From Hyphomicrobiales bacterium (GTDB lineage: Bacteria > Pseudomonadota > Alphaproteobacteria > Rhizobiales > Rhizobiaceae): a stretch of 64,000 nucleotides of DNA. The translations under genes and the position numbers were made by a program. The notes under the pieces were generated by a model, which was not told where the DNA came from, made no database searches, and saw nothing but the letters and a program-made list of their open reading frames with translations. Shown here in pieces: positions 1 to 10,680 of the stretch. The stretch covers positions 21,179-85,178 of the forward strand of contig UCNG01000009.1 in assembly GCA_900473915.1 (NCBI GenBank). The letters run 5' to 3'. Numbering within the stretch: the first letter of the stretch is position 1; the number at the start of each line of letters is the position of its first letter.

Positions 1-165
1 GAACTGCCGGGAGCGCTTCACCGCAATCTGGTCGCCTATGCGGAGGTGCTGGCCCGCGAAAGCGGCCAGCCGGTCGCCGATCCGGTGAGGCTGATCGTAC
101 CGATGCTGGAGCGGTTCATCGCTACGGATCGCGGCTTCGCAAAGGCACGGCGCACTTCCGGCTGA
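1..165 (+). CDS. DUF2274 family protein, C-terminal part (5' end outside window)
   Basis: The window opens inside a small reading frame of 55 codons ending at TGA 163-165. Its last residues (RLIVPMLERFIATDRGFAKA) are nearly the same as the end of the complete DUF2274 gene at 11586-11819, and the DNA is also closely similar there. DUF2274 genes normally sit directly after trbI at the end of Ti-type trb conjugation operons, so a conjugation module probably lies just left of the window. The function of the family is unknown to me. The 5' end is missing only because the window starts here. Confidence 0.8.
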   Translation, partial: ELPGALHRNLVAYAEVLARESGQPVADPVRLIVPMLERFIATDRGFAKARRTSG

Positions 166-435: not shown

Positions 436-669
436 ATGTCAGGAAAGCATAAAAAGTTTGGCCCGCGTCTCACGGTCAGTCTGACTGGCGGTGACTATGA
501 CGCTCTTTCGGCGCTCGCGGAGAAGGATGACGTGTCGGTGTCCTGGGTCGTGCGCCGTGCGATTGACGAATATCTCGAAAACCACCACCACGAGGTCGAG
601 CCGGCATTGCCGCTGCGCGTGCTTCAGAAGGCGGAGAGGTCGGCCCATCTGGCAGGCCACAAGCAATGA
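436..669 (+). CDS. Ribbon-helix-helix (CopG-like) DNA-binding protein, first gene of defence-like operon
   Basis: About 77 residues. A stretch reading RLTVSLTGGDYDALSALAE followed by SVSWVVRRAIDEYLE has the short beta strand plus two helices of a ribbon-helix-helix dimer. Such proteins bind operators as dimers or tetramers and often repress their own operon. The reading frame is also open from an ATG at 403, but a possible -10 box overlaps that codon, so 436 is preferred. The stop overlaps the next start as ATGA (666-669), so it is translationally coupled to the methyltransferase. It is probably the operon's own regulator; that role is inferred from position and fold. Confidence 0.75.
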   Translation: MSGKHKKFGPRLTVSLTGGDYDALSALAEKDDVSVSWVVRRAIDEYLENHHHEVEPALPLRVLQKAERSAHLAGHKQ

Positions 670-2540
670 TCGACGGGGGGAAGCCAGTGAAGCGCGCGAA
701 CGAATCGGAACACAGAACAACGGCAATGGCGCGGCCCGAGGTCAGCGTTCTGTATGAGCGCGCCCTGCCGGCAAAGCGCACAGGTCCTCTTTACGGCGCG
801 TTTCCGTACCCGACAAAGATCTCACCCGATGCGATCGCCCTCTATATCGCCTCCCATACAAAACCCGGCGACACCGTTTTCGACGGGTTTGCCGGTAGTG
901 GCACGACCGGCCTTGCAGCCCTGCTTTGCGAAAACCCTTCCGATGAACTCCGGGCCGAAGCGAAGCGGCTTGGGCTCAAGGTCGAGTGGGGCGCGCGCAA
1001 CGCCGTGCTCTACGAACTTGGTGCGCTCGGTGCTTTTGTCGGCAGAACGCTGACCAATCCGCCTGAACCCAAAGCCTTCCAGAAGGCCGCTGACCGCATC
1101 CTTCGCGACGCCGAACGCGACACCGGCTGGATGTACGAAGCGATTGATCCCGACGGCAAGAAGGGGGCGATCCGCCATGCCGTCTGGACCGACGTTTTGC
1201 GCTGCCCCGCCTGCCGGAGGCAAGCGACGCTATGGGATTCGTGCGTTTCGCTCGATCCGGCGCGTATCGACTCCGTGTTCCGGTGCCCGCGCTGCGCCCA
1301 TGAAGCCGCCTTTGATGAGGTGGAACGGCTTACCGAAACCGTCGCCGACGATGTTACGGGAGAAGATACTGAGCGCAGGGCGCGCAAAATTGCCCGCATT
1401 TACGGCGTCACCGGCAAGCAGCGATGGTCGCGTTCAGCGACGAAGGCCGATGTGGCGTTGCTGGACCGCATCGCGCGGGAGCCGATCCCGGATTGTGTGC
1501 CGAATGTCCTAATTCCGTGGGGTGATCTTTACCGTCGTGGCTACCATCAGGGCATCACGCACCTGCATCATTTCTACACGCGCCGGAATCTGATCGTGTT
1601 CGCCCGCCTGTGGAAATTGGCGGGAGCGTACGAAGGCAGCCTGCGCGATGCGCTGCGCTTCTGGCTGCTCAGTTACAACGCGTCGCATGCGACCGTGATG
1701 ACCCGCGTCGTCGCGAAGTCCGGGCAAAAGGATCTTGTGGTGACAAGCGCCCAGCCCGGCGTCCTCTATATCAGCGGGCTGCCGGTCGAGAAAAACCTCT
1801 TTGCCGGACTGAAACGCAAGCTCAAGACCATCGCGGAGGCATTCTCGGTTATCCATGGCCGTGCCGGCAAGGTCGAGGTCTACCGCAAGTCGAGCTGCGC
1901 GGTCGATTTGCCCGATGCCAGCATTGACTACGTTTTCACCGATCCGCCGTTCGGCGGAAATATCCCCTACGCCGAGATCAGCTTCATCAACGAAGCCTGG
2001 CTTGGAAGCTATACCGACCGCGCGGACGAGATCATTGTCAGCGAAAGTCAGCAAAAGACGATCACGCAGTATCAGGAGCTCCTGACTGCGGCCCTTTCCG
2101 AGGTCCATCGGATTCTCAAGCCGGACGGACAGGCGACCCTTGTCTTCCATTCCGCGTCGGCAGACGTGTGGAATGCGCTTCAGGCCGCCTACAGCGATGC
2201 CGGATTCAACGTCGAATGCGCCGGCGTGCTGGACAAGACGCAGGGCAGCTTCAAGCAGGTCACCACGGCGGGCGCAGTCCGTGGCGATCCGGTTCTGTTA
2301 CTTGGGAAAGAGCCGGCTGCCCAAGGCGCGGCAGACGAATGTGTCTGGATCGTCGCACAGCAGCTCAGTCAGGCGGCGCTGGGGCTCGATCCCTCCGAGC
2401 AGACTCCGCAGCGGCTTTATTCACGGCTTGTCAGCTATTTTCTGACCAGTCATCAAAAAGTGCCGCTCGACGCAGACGACTTCTATCGCTGGCACGATGC
2501 GCAGCAAACGGCGAAGGTAGCCGACTGTGCCGGGGCCTGA
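666..2540 (+). CDS. DNA methyltransferase with inserted zinc ribbon (MTase A)
   Basis: 624 residues. The SAM-binding motif FAGSGT lies at about 75-80, preceded by a PYPTKISPDAI stretch typical of amino-methyltransferases that act on DNA. The catalytic motif TDPPFGGN lies at about 425-432. Between them, Cys180, Cys183, Cys207 and Cys210 form two CPxC knuckles, a likely zinc ribbon. The motif order (SAM motif first, DPPF late) fits an N6-adenine or N4-cytosine methyltransferase with the target-recognition region in the middle. The start overlaps the stop of the RHH gene (ATGA); a GTG at 687 with a GGGGG-type ribosome-binding site is an alternative. It overlaps MTase B by 14 nt. No nuclease domain is visible in it. 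Confidence 0.85.
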   Translation: MIDGGKPVKRANESEHRTTAMARPEVSVLYERALPAKRTGPLYGAFPYPTKISPDAIALYIASHTKPGDTVFDGFAGSGTTGLAALLCENPSDELRAEAKRLGLKVEWGARNAVLYELGALGAFVGRTLTNPPEPKAFQKAADRILRDAERDTGWMYEAIDPDGKKGAIRHAVWTDVLRCPACRRQATLWDSCVSLDPARIDSVFRCPRCAHEAAFDEVERLTETVADDVTGEDTERRARKIARIYGVTGKQRWSRSATKADVALLDRIAREPIPDCVPNVLIPWGDLYRRGYHQGITHLHHFYTRRNLIVFARLWKLAGAYEGSLRDALRFWLLSYNASHATVMTRVVAKSGQKDLVVTSAQPGVLYISGLPVEKNLFAGLKRKLKTIAEAFSVIHGRAGKVEVYRKSSCAVDLPDASIDYVFTDPPFGGNIPYAEISFINEAWLGSYTDRADEIIVSESQQKTITQYQELLTAALSEVHRILKPDGQATLVFHSASADVWNALQAAYSDAGFNVECAGVLDKTQGSFKQVTTAGAVRGDPVLLLGKEPAAQGAADECVWIVAQQLSQAALGLDPSEQTPQRLYSRLVSYFLTSHQKVPLDADDFYRWHDAQQTAKVADCAGA

Positions 2541-4635
2541 TGCGCACGCACTGATCCGCGGCGAGGCACGCGCCTTTGAAGAGGCGCTGCCTTCTGCGCA
2601 GCGAAAGGACCTCGGCCAGTTTTTCACGGGCATTCTGCTCGGGCGCGTACTCGCGCATCTGGTCGTTGAGAGCGACACCAGGCGCATCCTCGACCCGATG
2701 GGGGGCAGCGGCGATCTGCTTGACGCGGCACACGAAGCCGCTGCCGCAAGCGATGTAACGCCGGAACGGCTGGACGCCATCGAGATCGACCAAGCGACTG
2801 CCGCGATGTGCAAGACGCGGCTTCAGCGCATTTGCAATGACACGGGCACCGCACCCCTTGTCCTTTGCGCCGATGCCTTCGAACCGGCCATCTATGATGC
2901 GTTGCCGGAAACCGGCTATGACCTTGTCATTACGAACCCGCCTTATGTTCGCTACCAGTCGCTCAACGGCCGGGCGGATAAAGTCCGGCTGGGACTTTCA
3001 TCGATAGCGAACCGGCGTCTCTCCGAGCCTTCCCGAAACGTCTGGAGGGCATTGGTCAACGGGTACTCGGGACTCGCCGACCTGTCCGTCCCGTCATGGC
3101 TTCTAGCCGCCCTGTTGGTCAGGCCCGGGGGGCGCCTTGCGCTTGTCGTACCGGCCACCTGGCGCTCGCGCGCCTATGCCGATGTTATCCGCTACCTGCT
3201 GCTGCGCTGCTTCCGGGTTGAACTGATCGTCGAGGATACACAGCCGGGCTGGTTTTCGGATGCGCTTGTGCGCACGCATCTTATCGTAGCCCGGCGCCTT
3301 CACGACGACGAAATCGCAGAACCCGTCAGCGCGCGCGGCCCTTTGCCGGCGGCCGTTTGGGCGCAGGTTGCGCCGGAGGCCGCGTCCTCCATGTCATTGG
3401 TCGGGCGTGCGTTTGCCGGAGAGCAGCCCGAGGCGGATTTCGCGGCATGGTGCTACGGCGGCGAGCGGCCCAACGTTACTGGCATCAGCGCCCGCTCGTT
3501 CTCTCTTGATGATGAATGGCACGCGCTGCGCGCCCAGGCCGTCGGGCGGCCCTGGATGGCGGCACTTGAGCAGGCCGGGCCGGACCTTCCCTTGTTCGGC
3601 CGAACCCAGACAACAGCCGTCCCTGTGCCCGAAGCGCTCCGGGACCTGCTGCCGGAATCGTTTGACGGGCAGGCACTGCGCACACTCGATGATGCCGGTA
3701 TTTGCGCGGGCCAGGGTTTGCGGACGGGCTGCAACCGGTTCTTTTACGTCAGGCTGGTCGAAGAGGCTGGCGGATCGCGCGCGATGATCGAGACCGATCC
3801 GGTGCTTGGCGCGCGTACGTTGCTTGTGCCGGCGGATGCCTTGCAGCCGGTCCTCCACCGGCAGGCTGATCTTGAGACGTGGCGCAGCGGGCGGCTGCCC
3901 GCCACGCGCGTTCTCGACCTACGCCGCTTGGTGCTGCCCGAGGATATGGATGCGGTACGCGCGGCCGCGAAGCCCCTTGCACTGAATGACGACGCGGTAC
4001 CGGCGCTCATGCCGGAGGAGCTCGCCGCCCATGTGCGGAAAGCCGGTAATACCTCAATCGGGAAGGGCGCAAATGCGCATACGGTTTCAAACCTGTCGGC
4101 GGTCCGAACGAATATCCGCCCGGCGCGGCGCGGGACGCTGCCGCGCTTCTGGTACATGCTCCCCGATTTCATGCCGCGCCACCTGCCGCAGGCATTTGTG
4201 CCGCGGATCATTCATACCGCGCCCTACGTCTACACGAATCGCGATCCGGCCATTCTTATCGATGCCAACTTCTCGACATTCTGGACCGAGGGAGAGACCT
4301 GGACTGCCGCCGGCCTGGCGGCTTTGCTGAACAGCGCATGGTGCCGCGCCGTCATGGAAGCGACGGGTACGCCGCTTGGCGGCGGCGCGCTGAAACTCGA
4401 AGCCGTTCATCTTCGCAAGATGGCTGTGCCGCATCTTGCACCGGCTGCGGTCGAAAGCCTCAATGCAGCCGGGCAATCAACGCCCGACCGCCGGGACGAG
4501 CGAACAATCGACCGGATCGTTCTTCGCGCGGTGCTGACCGGCAATCCCTCCGACTCTGAAATCGACGCCTTCGCAGAGCGCCTTGACGCGCGCCGTGCTG
4601 CACTAGGCGCAGCCCGCCAAAGAGGTGCAGCATGA
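2527..4635 (+). CDS. N6-adenine DNA methyltransferase, Eco57I-like (MTase B)
   Basis: 702 residues, GTG start inside the end of MTase A. The N-terminus has KDLGQFFT (about 28-34), the usual lead-in of gamma-class N6-adenine methyltransferases. The SAM motif DPMGGSGDLLDAA follows at about 56-68, and the catalytic NPPYVRYQ at about 137-144. The long C-terminal half has no motif I recognise and probably contains the target-recognition domain. No nuclease motif is visible. It overlaps MTase C by ATGA (4632-4635). It differs clearly from MTase A in motif order, so the two are not duplicates. Confidence 0.85.
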   Translation: MPGPDAHALIRGEARAFEEALPSAQRKDLGQFFTGILLGRVLAHLVVESDTRRILDPMGGSGDLLDAAHEAAAASDVTPERLDAIEIDQATAAMCKTRLQRICNDTGTAPLVLCADAFEPAIYDALPETGYDLVITNPPYVRYQSLNGRADKVRLGLSSIANRRLSEPSRNVWRALVNGYSGLADLSVPSWLLAALLVRPGGRLALVVPATWRSRAYADVIRYLLLRCFRVELIVEDTQPGWFSDALVRTHLIVARRLHDDEIAEPVSARGPLPAAVWAQVAPEAASSMSLVGRAFAGEQPEADFAAWCYGGERPNVTGISARSFSLDDEWHALRAQAVGRPWMAALEQAGPDLPLFGRTQTTAVPVPEALRDLLPESFDGQALRTLDDAGICAGQGLRTGCNRFFYVRLVEEAGGSRAMIETDPVLGARTLLVPADALQPVLHRQADLETWRSGRLPATRVLDLRRLVLPEDMDAVRAAAKPLALNDDAVPALMPEELAAHVRKAGNTSIGKGANAHTVSNLSAVRTNIRPARRGTLPRFWYMLPDFMPRHLPQAFVPRIIHTAPYVYTNRDPAILIDANFSTFWTEGETWTAAGLAALLNSAWCRAVMEATGTPLGGGALKLEAVHLRKMAVPHLAPAAVESLNAAGQSTPDRRDERTIDRIVLRAVLTGNPSDSEIDAFAERLDARRAALGAARQRGAA

Positions 4636-7600
4636 GTGCCGACGTGAACCAGGCCCGCGAAGCCATCCTGCGCTGCCGCGCGCTGCGGCAGAAAGGAGCC
4701 GTCGAGGCCGTGCTGCGCGGCGAGTTCCAGTCCTGGCTGCGCCGCATCTTTCCCGATGCCGGGGACGAACGCTGGATCAATCACTATGGCGAGGGCGCGG
4801 AGGCGCACGCCAAAGTCGGGGTTGCCGGCGGCGCCCTTGCCAACCGCTTCATCGACAATCTGATCGGCTCGACAACGATCGAGTACGAAGCAGACCTGCG
4901 TATTCCCGCGAAGCGTGAGGAAGGATTCGGGCAGGTCAAGGAACACGCGGCAGGGCTCATCCGCAGCGGCGTTCCGATATCCCAGGTGCGCGGCATCCTG
5001 TCCGACACGGTGGACTGGTACGCCTACGATGTTGTGCTCGATCCGGGCATTGAGCCCGGTGACTGTACCGTCGATGATATCGAGCTTGTCGAAGTCGAAG
5101 CGTTTGAGCCGGCGGCTGACGATGAGCCGACCGCCGAGCGGCTGACGCTTTTTCTCCGCCGGCATCTGGCCCGCGAGCAATCCCGTCCGCTGATCGCCGA
5201 CAACCTTGCCTTCGATCTTGGACTTGAGAGTCCGGCCTACAGGCGCAATGTCGATGCGCTTACCGGGCTGGTTCAGGCTGGCCGCGACGCCGATCCATCG
5301 ATTGCGCTTGCGACCGATCTCTGGTCTCATTTCGTTGATCATCTCGAAGGAGAAGGCGGTCCCTTTCGTATCGGCCCGTATGTTGACGAGGTTTATCTCA
5401 CGATCCTGGCACGTCTTCTGAGCGCCAATGCGCTTGCAGGGTCAGCCATCGTCAGTGACGACGATGAACTCCGGGCCATCTTGAACGGCTCCTTTTTTCA
5501 GAATGAGTACCAGCTCGATAACCTGGTTGAGAAAGATTACTTCGGCTGGATTGCGGAACCCGCCCATATTGCCGGATTCCTGCCGGTTGCCCGTGAAATC
5601 CAGCGCGATCTTTATGCCTACGATTTTGGCCGGCGGGCGGAAGAAGACCTTTTCGGCCGCCTGATGGCGCAGCTTGCGCGCCGCAGCCAGCGCAAGCTGC
5701 TCGGACAGGAATGGACGCCGTCATGGCTCGCGCGCCATCTGGCCGAGCGCTGTCTTGACGATCTTCCGGACGGTGAGGAACCCGAGATCGTCGATATGTG
5801 CTGCGGTTCCGGCGCGATCCTCGCCGAGGTGATCAAGGCGGTGAAAGCCCGCTATGGCTATGAGGATATCGCCCGTCTCGGCAGCGTCGCGACAGGCTTT
5901 GATATCGATCCGCTGGCCGTTGCGTTCGCCAAAACAACGTGGGTCATTACCCTCGCTGACGAAATCAACGGGGCGGGCGGCCCCGTCACGATCCCGATCT
6001 ATCACGCCGACTCCCTGTTCGCCGTCACACCGGTATCGGCATCGCTGCCGATGCTGGGCGAGAGCGAAAAGATCGATATCACGCTCGACGGTGAAACCAT
6101 CCAGTTGCCCGCGGGCCTTTTGCAGCCGGACCATCGCGAGCTGTTCGACGCGCTCATCGACTGGGCCTACGACGAAGCGCAGCAGTCCGGTGGCGTGCCG
6201 CCGACGGAAGATAATGCGCGGACCACGCTTGATACGGCGGCTGCCGCCTCCAACGTAACCCTGTCGCAAGACCTGCGGGAGGCTTCGGCTCAGGCCCTAC
6301 TGGCGCTTGCCCGGCGCATGAAAGAACTCGCTGACGCCGGGCGCAACGGCATCTGGGCTTTCATTCTGCGCAACACCTACAGGCCGGGCCTGCTCGCCGG
6401 ACGGTTCAATGGGCTTGTTTCCAATCCGCCGTGGCTCGCCATGAGCGCGCTTGCCGACAATCCCTACCGTGACCTGCTCTCGCGCCGCGCAGCTCTGTAT
6501 GGCGTGCGGCCCGCCGGGCAGTCTTTCCTCCATCTTGAATTGGGCACGACCCACCTGCTTCATGCCGTTGACCGGTATCTCAAGCCGGGCGCGGCGGTTG
6601 CGTGCCTTGTCCCCGGCACCATCCTGAACGGCAATCACCACGAGAAGTTTCGCCAGCGGGGCTATATCGCCAGCGACCGGCCGGTGGCGTTCAACGTCAC
6701 TGAAATCTGGCAGGTCGCTCCCGGCACCTTCAAATATCCGGGCGCGGCGCTCATCGGAAAGAAGGGTGCCGACATTGCCGCTGTGGACCATCCGGTCGGC
6801 GCGGGGGCGGTCGCACGACCGGATGATGTCGAGACGGTGGACTTTGCCATTCGTCAGATAGGCACGACCCGCACCGCATGGGTTCTTGAGAAAGGCGGGC
6901 TGCCGGCGGCGCCGGCCGGCGGCGACGAAGTCTCCCGGCAGGGCGCGGACATTATGCCCCGCAGCACAGTGTGCATCGAAATCCTCAATGACACCGGCAA
7001 CGAATACCGGGTTGATACGCCCGGACCCGGTTCGGAATGGGGCTTCACCCTCAAGCAGGCCAAAGAGTTCAAAGGCGAAAAGTTTCCCGGCTATGTCGCG
7101 CCGCGCTTTATCCACCGGATGGCGCAGTCGGAGAATCTGCTGCCCTTCGTCTTTGGATCGCACCGTGCACCGGTCGCCATTCCGGCCTGCCGGGATGGGA
7201 GCGGGGCGTGGCAGATTTACGAGCCTGCCGATATCCGGCGCATGGGTTTCACCCGCACCGCTCGCCGGTTCACGCAAATCAATGACAAGCTTGCGACTAT
7301 CGGTGACAGCACACTCGCCTACCGCATCGACTTTCGGCGCAAGCTTTCCATTCAGGATTTCGGCGACGACGGCTTTGTCGTGTTGTCCGGCGCCGGCGGC
7401 AAGCATATCTGCGCTGCCTGTTTACCCGTTGACGAGGCGGCGGCGCTCGTCATCGACCAGACCCTTTACTGGCAGGTTGTCGCGGAGGAAGACGATGCCT
7501 GGTTCAGGACTGGCTTCCTCAACAGCGCGGCTCTGACAGAAGCGATCCTGCCGTTCAATCCCGAGGGGGATTTCGGGCCGCGTCATATCCATACGCTCCC

Positions 7601-7886
7601 CTATCGCCTGATGCCGCCGTACGACGCCGCCGCCGACGACCACCGCGCCGTGGCCGCCGCCGCCCGTGTGGTTGCCGGCGAGGCGGCGGCTATCGTCGCG
7701 GCGGATGCCTATATCGGCGATCCGAATCGTTCGCTTCCGGTCCGGCGTAGGAAGCTGCGCGAGCAGCTCGCTGACAGCGAGAGCTTCCAGGAGCTGGACC
7801 GGCTTTGCGGTAAAATTCTTGGGGTCAATGTTGGGTTTGAGGGGGGTGAAACGCGCAATGAGCCATGCATTTTGGAGGAAATGTGA
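4632..7886 (+). CDS. Large DNA methyltransferase with nuclease-like N-terminal domain (MTase C, type IIG-like)
   Basis: 1084 residues. The SAM motif VDMCCGSGAILAEV (about 387-400) follows GQEWTP (about 359-364), and NPPW is at about 598-601, so the core is a gamma-type N6-adenine methyltransferase. The first 170 residues contain IEYEADL (about 83-89), then GFGQVKEH (about 99-105), then GILSDTVDWYAYDV (about 121-134). This spacing recalls the PD-(D/E)xK nuclease domain at the front of type IIG enzymes (ExK-dl, QlxxY, TDGxxWxxY), but the expected lysine in ExK is Glu here. It may therefore be an inactive or altered nuclease. That fold call is my inference. The gene ends 29 nt inside the ATPase gene. 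Confidence 0.8.
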   Translation: MSADVNQAREAILRCRALRQKGAVEAVLRGEFQSWLRRIFPDAGDERWINHYGEGAEAHAKVGVAGGALANRFIDNLIGSTTIEYEADLRIPAKREEGFGQVKEHAAGLIRSGVPISQVRGILSDTVDWYAYDVVLDPGIEPGDCTVDDIELVEVEAFEPAADDEPTAERLTLFLRRHLAREQSRPLIADNLAFDLGLESPAYRRNVDALTGLVQAGRDADPSIALATDLWSHFVDHLEGEGGPFRIGPYVDEVYLTILARLLSANALAGSAIVSDDDELRAILNGSFFQNEYQLDNLVEKDYFGWIAEPAHIAGFLPVAREIQRDLYAYDFGRRAEEDLFGRLMAQLARRSQRKLLGQEWTPSWLARHLAERCLDDLPDGEEPEIVDMCCGSGAILAEVIKAVKARYGYEDIARLGSVATGFDIDPLAVAFAKTTWVITLADEINGAGGPVTIPIYHADSLFAVTPVSASLPMLGESEKIDITLDGETIQLPAGLLQPDHRELFDALIDWAYDEAQQSGGVPPTEDNARTTLDTAAAASNVTLSQDLREASAQALLALARRMKELADAGRNGIWAFILRNTYRPGLLAGRFNGLVSNPPWLAMSALADNPYRDLLSRRAALYGVRPAGQSFLHLELGTTHLLHAVDRYLKPGAAVACLVPGTILNGNHHEKFRQRGYIASDRPVAFNVTEIWQVAPGTFKYPGAALIGKKGADIAAVDHPVGAGAVARPDDVETVDFAIRQIGTTRTAWVLEKGGLPAAPAGGDEVSRQGADIMPRSTVCIEILNDTGNEYRVDTPGPGSEWGFTLKQAKEFKGEKFPGYVAPRFIHRMAQSENLLPFVFGSHRAPVAIPACRDGSGAWQIYEPADIRRMGFTRTARRFTQINDKLATIGDSTLAYRIDFRRKLSIQDFGDDGFVVLSGAGGKHICAACLPVDEAAALVIDQTLYWQVVAEEDDAWFRTGFLNSAALTEAILPFNPEGDFGPRHIHTLPYRLMPPYDAAADDHRAVAAAARVVAGEAAAIVAADAYIGDPNRSLPVRRRKLREQLADSESFQELDRLCGKILGVNVGFEGGETRNEPCILEEM

Positions 7887-10680
7887 TTTCCAGGTCCACA
7901 CGCCGCGCGATCCGAATTGGGTCGGAAGCCGGCCGTTAGGGGCCGGCGACATCATCAAGGAAACAGGCGCAGAAGCCACGGCTGACGACGTAGATGCCGC
8001 CCGGATGCAATGGGCAAGCGAGTTTGTCGATCAGTGCATAGCCAAGGGTTTGCAGGCCGTTGCCATCACGGATCATCACGAGATGGTCATGGTGCCCTAC
8101 GTCCAGCAGGTGATCGCCGATCGAAAGAAGGCAGACCCGGCTTTTGACCTTTGGCTTTTTCCTGGCATGGAGCTGACCGCCAACAGCGGGAAGCAATGTC
8201 TTATAATCTTCGACGCCGCGCTTTCAGAGGATTGGAGACGGCAGGCCCAGGGCAAGCTCGGGATCATCTATGCTGACCTGGACGAGAAGGCGGCCAAGAG
8301 CCCGAAGGTGACTCAGCTTGCCGTAAATTATGCGGACATCGCCAAGGAACTTGATACGCTCGAAGGATTGCGCGGGCGCTATATCGTTCTCCCTAACGTC
8401 TCGCAGGGCAATAGTCACACCGTTCTGATTGACGGCGCGCACGGTGATTTCCGGCGCATGCCCTATGTTGGCGGTTATCTTGATCGAGGCCAGACGATAA
8501 AGACGCTTGGTCCCAAGAACCGGAAGCGCCTGTCCGGCACCGACAAAACATGGTCGGAACGTGAAGTCTACCCGCTGCCCAGCTCAGACAGCCGATCGGC
8601 TGATTACGCGGAGCTTGGTCAGAACAATACCTGGATCAAGCTGGCGGAACCGACAGCGGAGGCTATTCGACAGGCGTTTCTCGGTCACCAGTCGCGCATC
8701 TGCATCGAACCGCCGCAAATTCCCTCGCTCGTCGTTGCCGAGCTTGCCTTCGAGGGTTCGAGCATCCTGCAGGATACAATCCTGCCGCTTAGTCCGGAAC
8801 TCAATTCGATCATTGGCGGACGGGGCAGCGGTAAAAGCTCGCTTCTCGAATACTTGTCGTTCGGCCTCGGGCGAAGTTGCCACGATGCGCCACGAGATCA
8901 CTATTCCGGTACGGAGCGCTTGAGCGAGCTGGTAGACGACACTTTGGTATCAAAAGGCGGCCGCGTCACGCTGAAGATCGTCCAGGACAACGCACTTTTT
9001 ACGATCGAGCGCGGGCAGGCGAACGCCCACCAGCCCCAGGTCACCTATCCCAACGGTGATACGCAAACCGTAACGGTCAAAGAGCTGCGGGCACTCTTTC
9101 CAGCAGTCGTCTACAGTCAGGGCGAGCTTGCCGAAATTGGCAAGCAGGCCGGCAAAAAAGCGCAACTTTCGGACCTGCTTCAGTTTGTAAATCCGGAATA
9201 CAAGCGGGAGGATGATCGCCTTGCACAGGATATCGAAACCGCCAAAGCTGCGGTTAAGGCGGCGATCCAGAAGCTGGTTTCTCACTGGACTCTGCAAGCC
9301 AAACTGCGCCGGTTAAAAACCAACCGCGACTCGATCACGCAGCGCGTGCAGGCTCTTGAGAAAACGCTTCCGAAGCAATCGGACGAAGATCGGGCGATCG
9401 TCGCGTATTTCGACAAAGCCAATGACTTCGAGTTGAAGAGAATTCAGGCGTCCAAGCATGCCGATCAGATTCTGGACGAGCTAAACGCATGTGCAACAGA
9501 GCTACTAAACGAGCGCGACCTGAAATGCGAGCTGACTGGCGATCCTGAGGCCATTGAGCAGGCATATACAGATCTTTATGAGACCTTTAGCGCCGGTCTT
9601 AAGAAGCTACAGGACGAGCTCAAGGCCAGACGCGAAAGACTGACCGCAGCAGAAATGGACTGGACAGGAAAACTCCAGGAGGCACGAGAGGCGCGGGATG
9701 CGGTTCTGGAGAAGCTCAGCGAGCACAAGACCGTTACAGCGCAGATTATCAAGTTGCGCGAAGAGATATCAGACCTGACGAACCAGATGGGCGACCTGGA
9801 AGCGCAGCTAAAGGCGGCCGGCGATCCTGCTTCGGCCCTGCAGCAGGCAGTGGGCGTTCTGAAGGCGACTAACCGCCAGCGAGCAGAACGCACGCAGGAA
9901 TGGGCCAAGGAAATCGAAAGGCTTTCCAGCGGCAAGATCAAAGCCGCCGTCGATCCGAATGGCGATACATCGGAGATCGTCGATGCCATGGATATCGTGG
10001 CGAGCAAAACCGGATCACAGGAGGCGACCAGACTCAGAGCTCTTGAAGAGGCTTTGAGTGCTGATCCCGCACCGGATGTTGTGGATCGTCTGCGGACGGA
10101 CTGCCTCTCGCTTCTGTACTGGCGTCAGATTGGCTCCGCATCCGGGGAGGATCAGCCCAGATGCGCAGAGCTGATGAAGGTTTTGGGTGACACAGAGAAG
10201 ATCAGGGCGTCGTTGACCGAGCGCATTGATACGACGCGGGTTGAGGCAATCAGCACGGCTGTCGCCAAGCCGGAGATTGAGCTCTCCTATTGCGATGGCG
10301 ACCGGCAGATATCGTTCGAAAAGGCGTCTGAAGGCCAGAGAGCCGCTGCGCTGCTCTTCATGCTGCTGGAACAGCCCGGCGGGCCGCTGATTATCGACCA
10401 ACCTGAAGGCGACCTGGATAACAGGATCATTACTGACCTGACCGAAAAGCTCCACAACGCAAAACAGAATCGCCAGCTCATCTTCGTCAGTCACAATGCG
10501 AACATCGTCGTCAATGGCTCGTCTGAACTTGTGACTCACCTTGATATTGGCGACAACGGCGAGCGCAAAGTCGCTTGCGCCGGGGCCATCGACAAGCGGG
10601 AAATCTGCGAAGTGATCACGGCGACAATGGAAGGTGGTGAAAAGGCCTTTAAGGATCGACGGAATAAATATGGATACTAG
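7858..10680 (+). CDS. PHP-domain/SMC-like ATPase (TrlF-type)
   Basis: About 940 residues. The N-terminal PHP-like domain shows DFQVHTPRD (about 10-18), ITDHHE and PGMEL. The first histidine of the usual HxH metal pair is Gln. A Walker A GGRGSGKSS (about 320-328) follows, then a long charged helical region (about 440-700) that looks like coiled coil. After it come a signature-like SEGQRAAAL, a Walker B LIIDQPEGDLDN (about 843) and an H-loop FVSHNAN. This is the layout of SMC/RecN-type ATPases. The ATG at 7858 was chosen because it follows a GGGGGG box and keeps the PHP motif at the N-terminus; upstream ATGs lie deep inside MTase C. It is the last gene of the operon. Role in defence is inferred from partners; no helicase or classical endonuclease is present. 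Confidence 0.85.
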   Translation: MSHAFWRKCDFQVHTPRDPNWVGSRPLGAGDIIKETGAEATADDVDAARMQWASEFVDQCIAKGLQAVAITDHHEMVMVPYVQQVIADRKKADPAFDLWLFPGMELTANSGKQCLIIFDAALSEDWRRQAQGKLGIIYADLDEKAAKSPKVTQLAVNYADIAKELDTLEGLRGRYIVLPNVSQGNSHTVLIDGAHGDFRRMPYVGGYLDRGQTIKTLGPKNRKRLSGTDKTWSEREVYPLPSSDSRSADYAELGQNNTWIKLAEPTAEAIRQAFLGHQSRICIEPPQIPSLVVAELAFEGSSILQDTILPLSPELNSIIGGRGSGKSSLLEYLSFGLGRSCHDAPRDHYSGTERLSELVDDTLVSKGGRVTLKIVQDNALFTIERGQANAHQPQVTYPNGDTQTVTVKELRALFPAVVYSQGELAEIGKQAGKKAQLSDLLQFVNPEYKREDDRLAQDIETAKAAVKAAIQKLVSHWTLQAKLRRLKTNRDSITQRVQALEKTLPKQSDEDRAIVAYFDKANDFELKRIQASKHADQILDELNACATELLNERDLKCELTGDPEAIEQAYTDLYETFSAGLKKLQDELKARRERLTAAEMDWTGKLQEAREARDAVLEKLSEHKTVTAQIIKLREEISDLTNQMGDLEAQLKAAGDPASALQQAVGVLKATNRQRAERTQEWAKEIERLSSGKIKAAVDPNGDTSEIVDAMDIVASKTGSQEATRLRALEEALSADPAPDVVDRLRTDCLSLLYWRQIGSASGEDQPRCAELMKVLGDTEKIRASLTERIDTTRVEAISTAVAKPEIELSYCDGDRQISFEKASEGQRAAALLFMLLEQPGGPLIIDQPEGDLDNRIITDLTEKLHNAKQNRQLIFVSHNANIVVNGSSELVTHLDIGDNGERKVACAGAIDKREICEVITATMEGGEKAFKDRRNKYGY

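Follow-up and report, generated by a model that had tools for sequence, protein, structure and literature searches.

Three co-inherited DNA methyltransferases form the conserved core of a mobile, probably immune, operon with a variable downstream slot

We analyzed the left end of a 64,000-nucleotide stretch of DNA from a Hyphomicrobiales bacterium (GenBank assembly GCA_900473915.1, contig UCNG01000009.1; hereafter "the window"), where a ribbon-helix-helix (RHH) regulator, three unlike DNA methyltransferases (M1, M2, and M3), and a PHP/SMC-like ATPase follow one another on the forward strand (Table 1). An earlier, sequence-only reading had described five overlapping genes forming one self-contained system. 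The overlaps it gave—4 nt (RHH/M1), 14 nt (M1/M2), 4 nt (M2/M3), and 29 nt (M3/ATPase)—were exact on an open reading frame (ORF) check, and the grouping of the methyltransferases held up, but the ATPase did not emerge as a conserved member: the conserved core is M1–M2–M3, often behind a small regulator, and not a five-gene unit. This set is probably a little-studied immune system against foreign DNA. Within one small mobile operon, it unites enzymes resembling those of Type 3 bacteriophage exclusion (BREX-3) and of Type IIG restriction, is co-inherited over about 11 phyla, and is present in Escherichia coli.

To find relatives, 84,980 species genomes were scanned with an M3 alignment and two M3 peptide patterns; 44 of 109 stretches were confirmed, and 43 loci, whose M3 proteins are 32–83% identical to that of the window, were fetched. 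Because the scan rests on M3 patterns, it is no census. When the five window proteins were searched against these loci by tblastn, M2 was found in all 43 and M1 in 40, in the same order and on the same strand, while the three loci lacking M1 (L020, L033, and L045) lie on contigs that start inside M2. The same order recurring in 40 of the 43 loci places the three-gene core beyond chance. The distance matrices of M1, M2, and M3, computed over 34 rows (the window and 33 loci), were correlated with r values of 0.960, 0.961, and 0.947, compared to a maximum r of 0.258 in 2,000 permutations. Together, these correlations indicate that the three genes descend together, and the earlier view that the three unlike methyltransferases belong together is thereby borne out.

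Judged by record titles, the carriers span about 11 phyla, with many metagenome-assembled genomes (MAGs) among them; the groups are Pseudomonadota, Bacteroidota, Bacillota, Actinomycetota, Acidobacteriota, Chloroflexota, Nitrospinota, Verrucomicrobiota, Desulfobacterota, BRC1, and Bacteriovoracales. A Hymenobacter plasmid, from a phylum other than that of the window, carries M1 (49% identity, frameshifted), M2 (35%), and M3 (40%) in the same order, and TrlF, the family of the window ATPase, was not found on it. Departures from the standard layout were few: a phospholipase D (PLD)-cluster gene sits between M2 and M3 in L027, reading frames are broken in L026, L029, and L033, and the M3 frame of L047 stops near the contig end. 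In a BRC1 MAG (L030:5998-9972), a single open frame of 1,324 aa spans M1 and M2. Barring an error of assembly, this is possibly a natural fusion, and it points to a joint M1–M2 protein.

The triad also occurs on its own in mobile settings. A DNA query (L025), which sees copies of roughly at least 65% identity, matched the triad in 4 of 5,426 complete E. coli genomes. Each of these cassettes, bounded by an integrase next to tRNA-Leu and by a neighbor on the opposite side, has no annotated genes other than M1, M2, and M3. The opposite neighbor is a small AlpA-type/helix-turn-helix regulator in strains W284 and CD09 and insertion sequence (IS) debris in N1420 and AF16, where the integrase is broken. 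The cassettes resemble the P4-like satellite hotspot, reported to lie between psu and int (PMC9122126), but no psu is annotated in them. Since natural E. coli isolates carry the triad with nothing else annotated in the cassette, a laboratory strain would allow tests of why three marks are needed and of whether the downstream genes discussed below guard the triad.

Among the viral contigs of IMG/VR, the triad was present on six, one of them cut inside M1; here the search was also made from the M2 side, and the M2 and M3 queries converged on the same six. With M1 as the query, 19 viral loci came up, of which five are known triad contigs (the sixth starts inside M1). Two others (L124:322-2287 and L127:8001-9966) hold a near full-length M1 match followed by the first ~50–56 residues of M2 and no M3, and are apparently decayed triads. 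L133, which lies at the end of its contig, retains parts of both M1 and M2, the match in L139 covers only 43 residues, and the remaining ten are relatives at 28–34% identity without M2 or M3. In the window, a DUF2274 gene lies upstream of the operon, and in a near relative (L006), a TrbL gene stands upstream of the triad. DUF2274 genes usually adjoin Trb conjugation genes, and the triad may therefore be cargo of conjugative elements.

We then examined the three enzymes individually, taking M1 to be of the alpha class and M2 and M3 of the gamma class. M1 matched the PADLOC PglXI model with an E value of 3.3e-133 over model positions 111–697 of 919. Its D426-P-P-F429 motif and four cysteines (C180, C183, C207, and C210) are invariant in 39 sequences, in keeping with the Zn-ribbon methyltransferase recognized earlier. 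In a tree, 42 triad M1 rows split from 10 relatives (BREX-3 loci contributed three of these and L091 one; the other six are viral, of unchecked context) with support of 100/100. On this profile and tree evidence, M1 and the Type 3 BREX methyltransferase BrxXI/PglXI are sister lineages. M1 aligns with BrxXI over most of its length and, like BrxXI, carries the four-cysteine insert between motif I and DPPF (PMC12839542), whereas the model positions past 697, ~220 C-terminal residues, are unmatched in M1; the C-terminal region of BrxXI is described as three helix-turn-helix domains (PMC12839542). Thus, the methyltransferase core of the BREX-3 enzyme is present in M1, but M1 stands outside BREX loci. 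This 2026 BREX survey reports that the Zn-finger insert has no homologues outside BREX systems (PMC12839542), and M1 may be such a homologue.

M2 matched M.BseCI by profile (E = 3.5e-16), and its N137-P-P139 motif is invariant in 38 sequences. As a whole, the catalytic methyltransferase motifs show no variation in M1 or M2 and very little in M3. For M3, an AlphaFold2 model (mean predicted local distance difference test score, 84.5) matched MmeI, DrdV, BpuSI, BrxX, and CamA in fold. DrdV aligned to M3 residues 4–1064 with a root-mean-square deviation (rmsd) of 12.9–14.9, a value that indicates shifted domains, and the aligned part in the BrxX matches starts near residue 186, past the nuclease-like domain. 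In that front domain, E57, D75, E84, and E86 are invariant in 36 sequences at 31–83% identity to the window. Motif and predicted fold, including that of the N-terminal domain examined alone, agree with the nuclease-like front that had been assigned to this large methyltransferase. As modeled, a single M3 chain would thus hold a nuclease, a methyltransferase, and a target-recognition region, the build of a Type IIG enzyme. A solitary M3-like protein with a classical E-x-K motif is encoded on a Salinibacter plasmid (L002:7379-10525) and possibly represents an ancestor type of M3.

The ATPase of the window scored 459.5 bits against the NCBIfam model TrlF_fam_ATP (NF045780; cut-off, 350) over model positions 5–944 of 944 and, by this match, is a member of the TrlF family; it is related to the anti-phage protein Ppl but falls under the Ppl cut-off. 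The sequence-only reading had cast it as the integral effector. By tblastn, however, TrlF was found at none of the 43 triad loci within flanks of at most 10 kb a side, often less (the M3 frame reaches its stop in 41 loci, and at least 500 bp, 3 kb, and 9.5 kb are available behind it in 38, 34, and 30), and likewise in 0 of the 4 E. coli loci and 0 of the 6 viral triad contigs. Conversely, of 398 genomes examined in the phylum, 38 had TrlF matches at E ≤ 1e-30, 27 of them over the family cut-off, and the M2 model gave no match in these 398 genomes, an empty answer obtained without a positive control. The same reading had named ATPase homologues that usually lack the methyltransferases as speaking against itself; these results do so for the ATPase, and the triad withstands them. 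The TrlF ATPase therefore appears to be an exchangeable accessory gene outside the conserved core.

This ATPase fits a variable slot behind M3. Of the 43 loci, 17 have an ORF of 90 aa or more on the same strand within 100 bp behind M3, and its identity changes from locus to locus: Gabija GajA and GajB (L007); an SMC-like ATPase preceded by a small ORF (L009); PDC-S06 (L010, L035, and L041, the last two also with weaker PrrC matches), with which an AAA_13 piece (L040) was grouped; PDC-S53 (L042); PDC-S68 (L043); PLD-cluster proteins (L011 and L046, Pfam being run on L046); DUF4238 (L012); and ordinary genes, namely a recombinase (L020) and a tRNA synthetase (L033). The other four loci (L014, L015, L021, and L034) completed the 17 with no family named. 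PADLOC, run on nine of the 17, gave six strong results, two weak, and one none. L007 and L009 have M3 proteins that are 98% identical, yet their slot genes differ.

On the other side of the triad, about 25 of the 42 rows examined by eye (the window, 39 other loci, and two from E. coli) have a small ORF of DNA-binding type ahead of M1. Pfam confirmed two regulators only, the RHH protein of the window and a helix-turn-helix protein in L032; the beta/gamma-type upstream ORFs of L044 and L025 had no Pfam match, and no small regulator ORF was seen upstream in the two E. coli rows. The RHH protein may act as an autoregulator or in the manner of a C-protein.

Comparison with known systems supports the separate standing of the set. 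Type IIG enzymes are known to act alone or with one extra methyltransferase. M3 shares with the Type IIG/IIL enzymes BpuSI, DrdV, and MmeI the predicted domain order of nuclease-like part, linker, gamma-class methyltransferase, and target-recognition region, but differs in its E-x-E motif and in having two linked partner methyltransferases, M1 and M2, at the frequencies given above. PglZ, BrxC, and BrxF are not annotated in the E. coli cassettes; a PglZ domain was matched in 6 of the 32 triad genomes searched, three times in frames of 519–521 aa, and in the other 26 no match was found. Neither DISARM (defense island system associated with restriction-modification) proteins DrmA, DrmB, and the PLD protein DrmC (for M1, among the best 25 of 33 PADLOC matches) nor type I HsdS and HsdR were matched among the five window proteins, and none is annotated in the E. 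coli cassettes. The set thus does not belong to BREX, DISARM, or type I; the partners noted as absent at the outset are not needed in the E. coli cassettes. Against MADS (methylation-associated defense system), M1, M2, and M3 matched mad2 and the ATPase mad3 with E values of 1e-16 at best, but the MAD2 score was 25.5 bits against a cut-off of 720; other MADS genes were sought among the window proteins. M1, M2, and M3 of the window, as well as their E. coli counterparts (one strain), stay under every NCBIfam cut-off, so the set is without a system name in NCBIfam, and in the literature searched, whose reach mostly excluded subscription papers, it had no name or recognizable description.

Starting from what is established, namely the genes and their order, their joint inheritance, the conserved motifs, the predicted fold, and the variable downstream slot, we predict, as the reading that is on balance probable, that the small regulator and M1–M3 constitute a compact mobile restriction-modification (R-M)-like system with exchangeable back-up genes behind M3. 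M3 would act as a Type IIG enzyme does, with a PD-(D/E)XK-type nuclease, an adenine methyltransferase, and target recognition in one chain, and the BREX-3-like M1 and M.BseCI-like M2 would add further methyl marks, presumably on the N6 position of adenine. Host DNA would be safe once its marks are complete, and unmarked DNA would be cut or blocked via the front domain of M3, so that self could be told from non-self; the upstream regulator would probably delay or balance expression on entry into a new cell. TrlF behind M3 would be a separate back-up gene, possibly a guard acting if restriction is inhibited, in a position filled elsewhere by Gabija, PDC-S06, or PLD genes. Such a back-up role is proposed by analogy to PrrC, described as guardian of a type IC R-M system (PMC12707154), and to the auxiliary effectors of BREX, for which the BREX survey puts forward a back-up function (PMC12839542). 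A stronger version, which we regard as tentative and rather doubtful, is that the three methyltransferases form an obligate complex, which would both read and write three different marks, with the M3 nuclease domain cutting only DNA that lacks the full combination, and which would serve as a chassis for interchangeable back-up effectors (TrlF, PrrC-like, Gabija, or PLD) firing upon phage inhibition; this would be a distinct class of prokaryotic immunity.

Several observations weigh against an R-M-like system. No same-strand gene lies within 100 bp of M3 in 26 of the 43 loci (a few contigs end there: those of L029 and L045 inside M3, that of L047 38 bp past a premature stop), and the triad could accordingly be a pure modification module. 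The M3 motif is E-x-E instead of the classical E-x-K, meaning that the nuclease domain could be inactive or unusual; E-x-E active sites do exist, e.g., in BamHI. Foldseek alone did not recognize the N-terminal domain of M3, the NPPW motif reads NTPW in 4 of 36 rows, and the target-recognition regions show no hypervariability among members of the near clade, a feature that is uncommon in restriction systems and may reflect a conserved target. The first two of these points, together with the mobile carriers (integrase/tRNA-Leu in E. coli, a plasmid, the six IMG/VR contigs, DUF2274, and TrbL in L006), would suit a module in which the three methyltransferases shield a mobile element from host restriction or alter expression while the M3 nuclease is dead. 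We consider this unlikely, since invariant acidic residues across such divergent M3 proteins are unexpected for a dead domain, and upstream regulators and Gabija or PDC-S06 neighbors suit a restriction locus better.

Two further explanations appear more improbable still. An M1–M3 complex might recognize its site and block replication with the help of host proteins, as in BREX-like exclusion without cleavage; the BrxXI kinship of M1, the BrxX match of the M3 fold, and the joint inheritance and M1–M2 fusion, which suggest a complex, all favor it. Yet PglZ went unmatched in most of the triad genomes searched, the core has no ATPase or helicase, and the BrxX alignment begins only after the nuclease-like domain of M3. 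The original five-gene model, with the PHP-SMC ATPase as effector against DNA without M1–M3 methylation, would account for the 29-nt overlap of M3 and the ATPase and for TrlF genes lying right behind R-M or BREX genes elsewhere, as detailed below for two plasmids, a restriction endonuclease gene, L097, and L091, as well as for a 1,916-aa ORF and pYR3, but it is hard to reconcile with the finding of TrlF at none of the related triad loci in the bacterial, E. coli, and viral sets, within the flanking DNA available, and with the other downstream neighbor shared by 12 of 20 TrlF loci; we thus judge it to have little chance of being correct.

In the published TRL locus, TrlF belongs to a three-gene operon of trlR, trlF, and trlG, whereas the window TrlF stands behind the methyltransferase triad; on pYR3, a Yersinia plasmid, trlR and trlF are separated by two genes whose annotation is type I methyltransferase subunit (both PMC7554251). 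When 20 TrlF neighborhoods were surveyed, 12 shared one downstream family, of Schlafen/RecG-C type in the member tested, and no such gene lies behind position 10680 of the window. For 12 of these 20 loci, the genes upstream were tested as well, and two loci had R-M- or BREX-like ones: HsdM-HsdS in L097 and a BREX-3-type methyltransferase in L091. The remainder were a ResIII-type helicase with T5orf172 (L102), SMC-like (L096), RecD-like (L105), Fic-type (L090), and TPR/NACHT (L106) genes; metabolic, tRNA-synthetase, or transporter genes (L093, L100, L101, and L104); and an ORF without a Pfam match (L094). Among eight plasmid records with TrlF, it comes right after restriction-type genes in three (Agrobacterium, Sphingobium MI1205, and Novosphingobium MBES04); two of these have methyltransferase plus helicase or restriction subunit R genes, which we judge to be type III Mod-Res pairs, and one has a restriction endonuclease gene. 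On other plasmids, TrlF follows an annotated repA (TomTYG74) or hypothetical or IS genes (two Bradyrhizobium and one Paracoccus). On the Novosphingobium PP1Y plasmid (L050:6043-11793), the 1,916-aa ORF joins a restriction-endonuclease-like front (192 bits; family cut-off, 800) to a full TrlF end, possibly as a natural fusion. Together, these neighborhoods mark TrlF as a recurrent, not exclusive, companion of R-M systems.

Table 1. Features at the left end of the window, in window positions, with supporting matches (Pfam E values unless stated otherwise)
Feature	Position	Strand	Support
End of DUF2274 gene (window starts inside the gene)	1-165		Pfam, 3.9e-22
RHH regulator	436..669	+	RHH_1, 2e-7
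M1, alpha-class DNA methyltransferase (motif I, Zn-finger insert, DPPF)	666..2540	+	N6_N4_Mtase, 1.1e-14
Four-cysteine Zn-finger within the M1 insert	1203..1295	+	Invariant columns
M2, putative gamma-class N6-adenine methyltransferase with putative C-terminal target-recognition region	2527..4635	+	N6_Mtase, 2.8e-8; Eco57I, 6.2e-7
M3, Type IIG-like: predicted nuclease-like domain, helical linker, gamma-class methyltransferase, target-recognition region	4632..7886	+	N6_Mtase, 1.1e-5
Predicted PD-(D/E)XK-type nuclease-like domain of M3 (residues 1-160)	4632..5111	+	E57, D75, E84-x-E86, Q101
TrlF-family PHP/SMC-like ATPase (ATG at 7858)	7858..10680	+	SMC_N, 7.6e-11; PHP match sub-threshold

For the RHH gene, we preferred the start at 436 to that at 403 given by the ORF tool; several relatives start at the residue coded at 436. 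The DNA to the right of the operon has plasmid matches that are mostly rhizobial, followed by what we judge to be housekeeping genes. In one of the slot loci, a Bacteroidales MAG (L021:6651-15828), two large proteins of 1,045 and 2,016 aa, the first without a Pfam match, are encoded directly behind M3. L091:214-17685 is itself a BREX-3-like locus, with a BrxC-like protein, a BrxXI-type methyltransferase, and a DrmD-like helicase, in which TrlF and another gene come directly after the methyltransferase.

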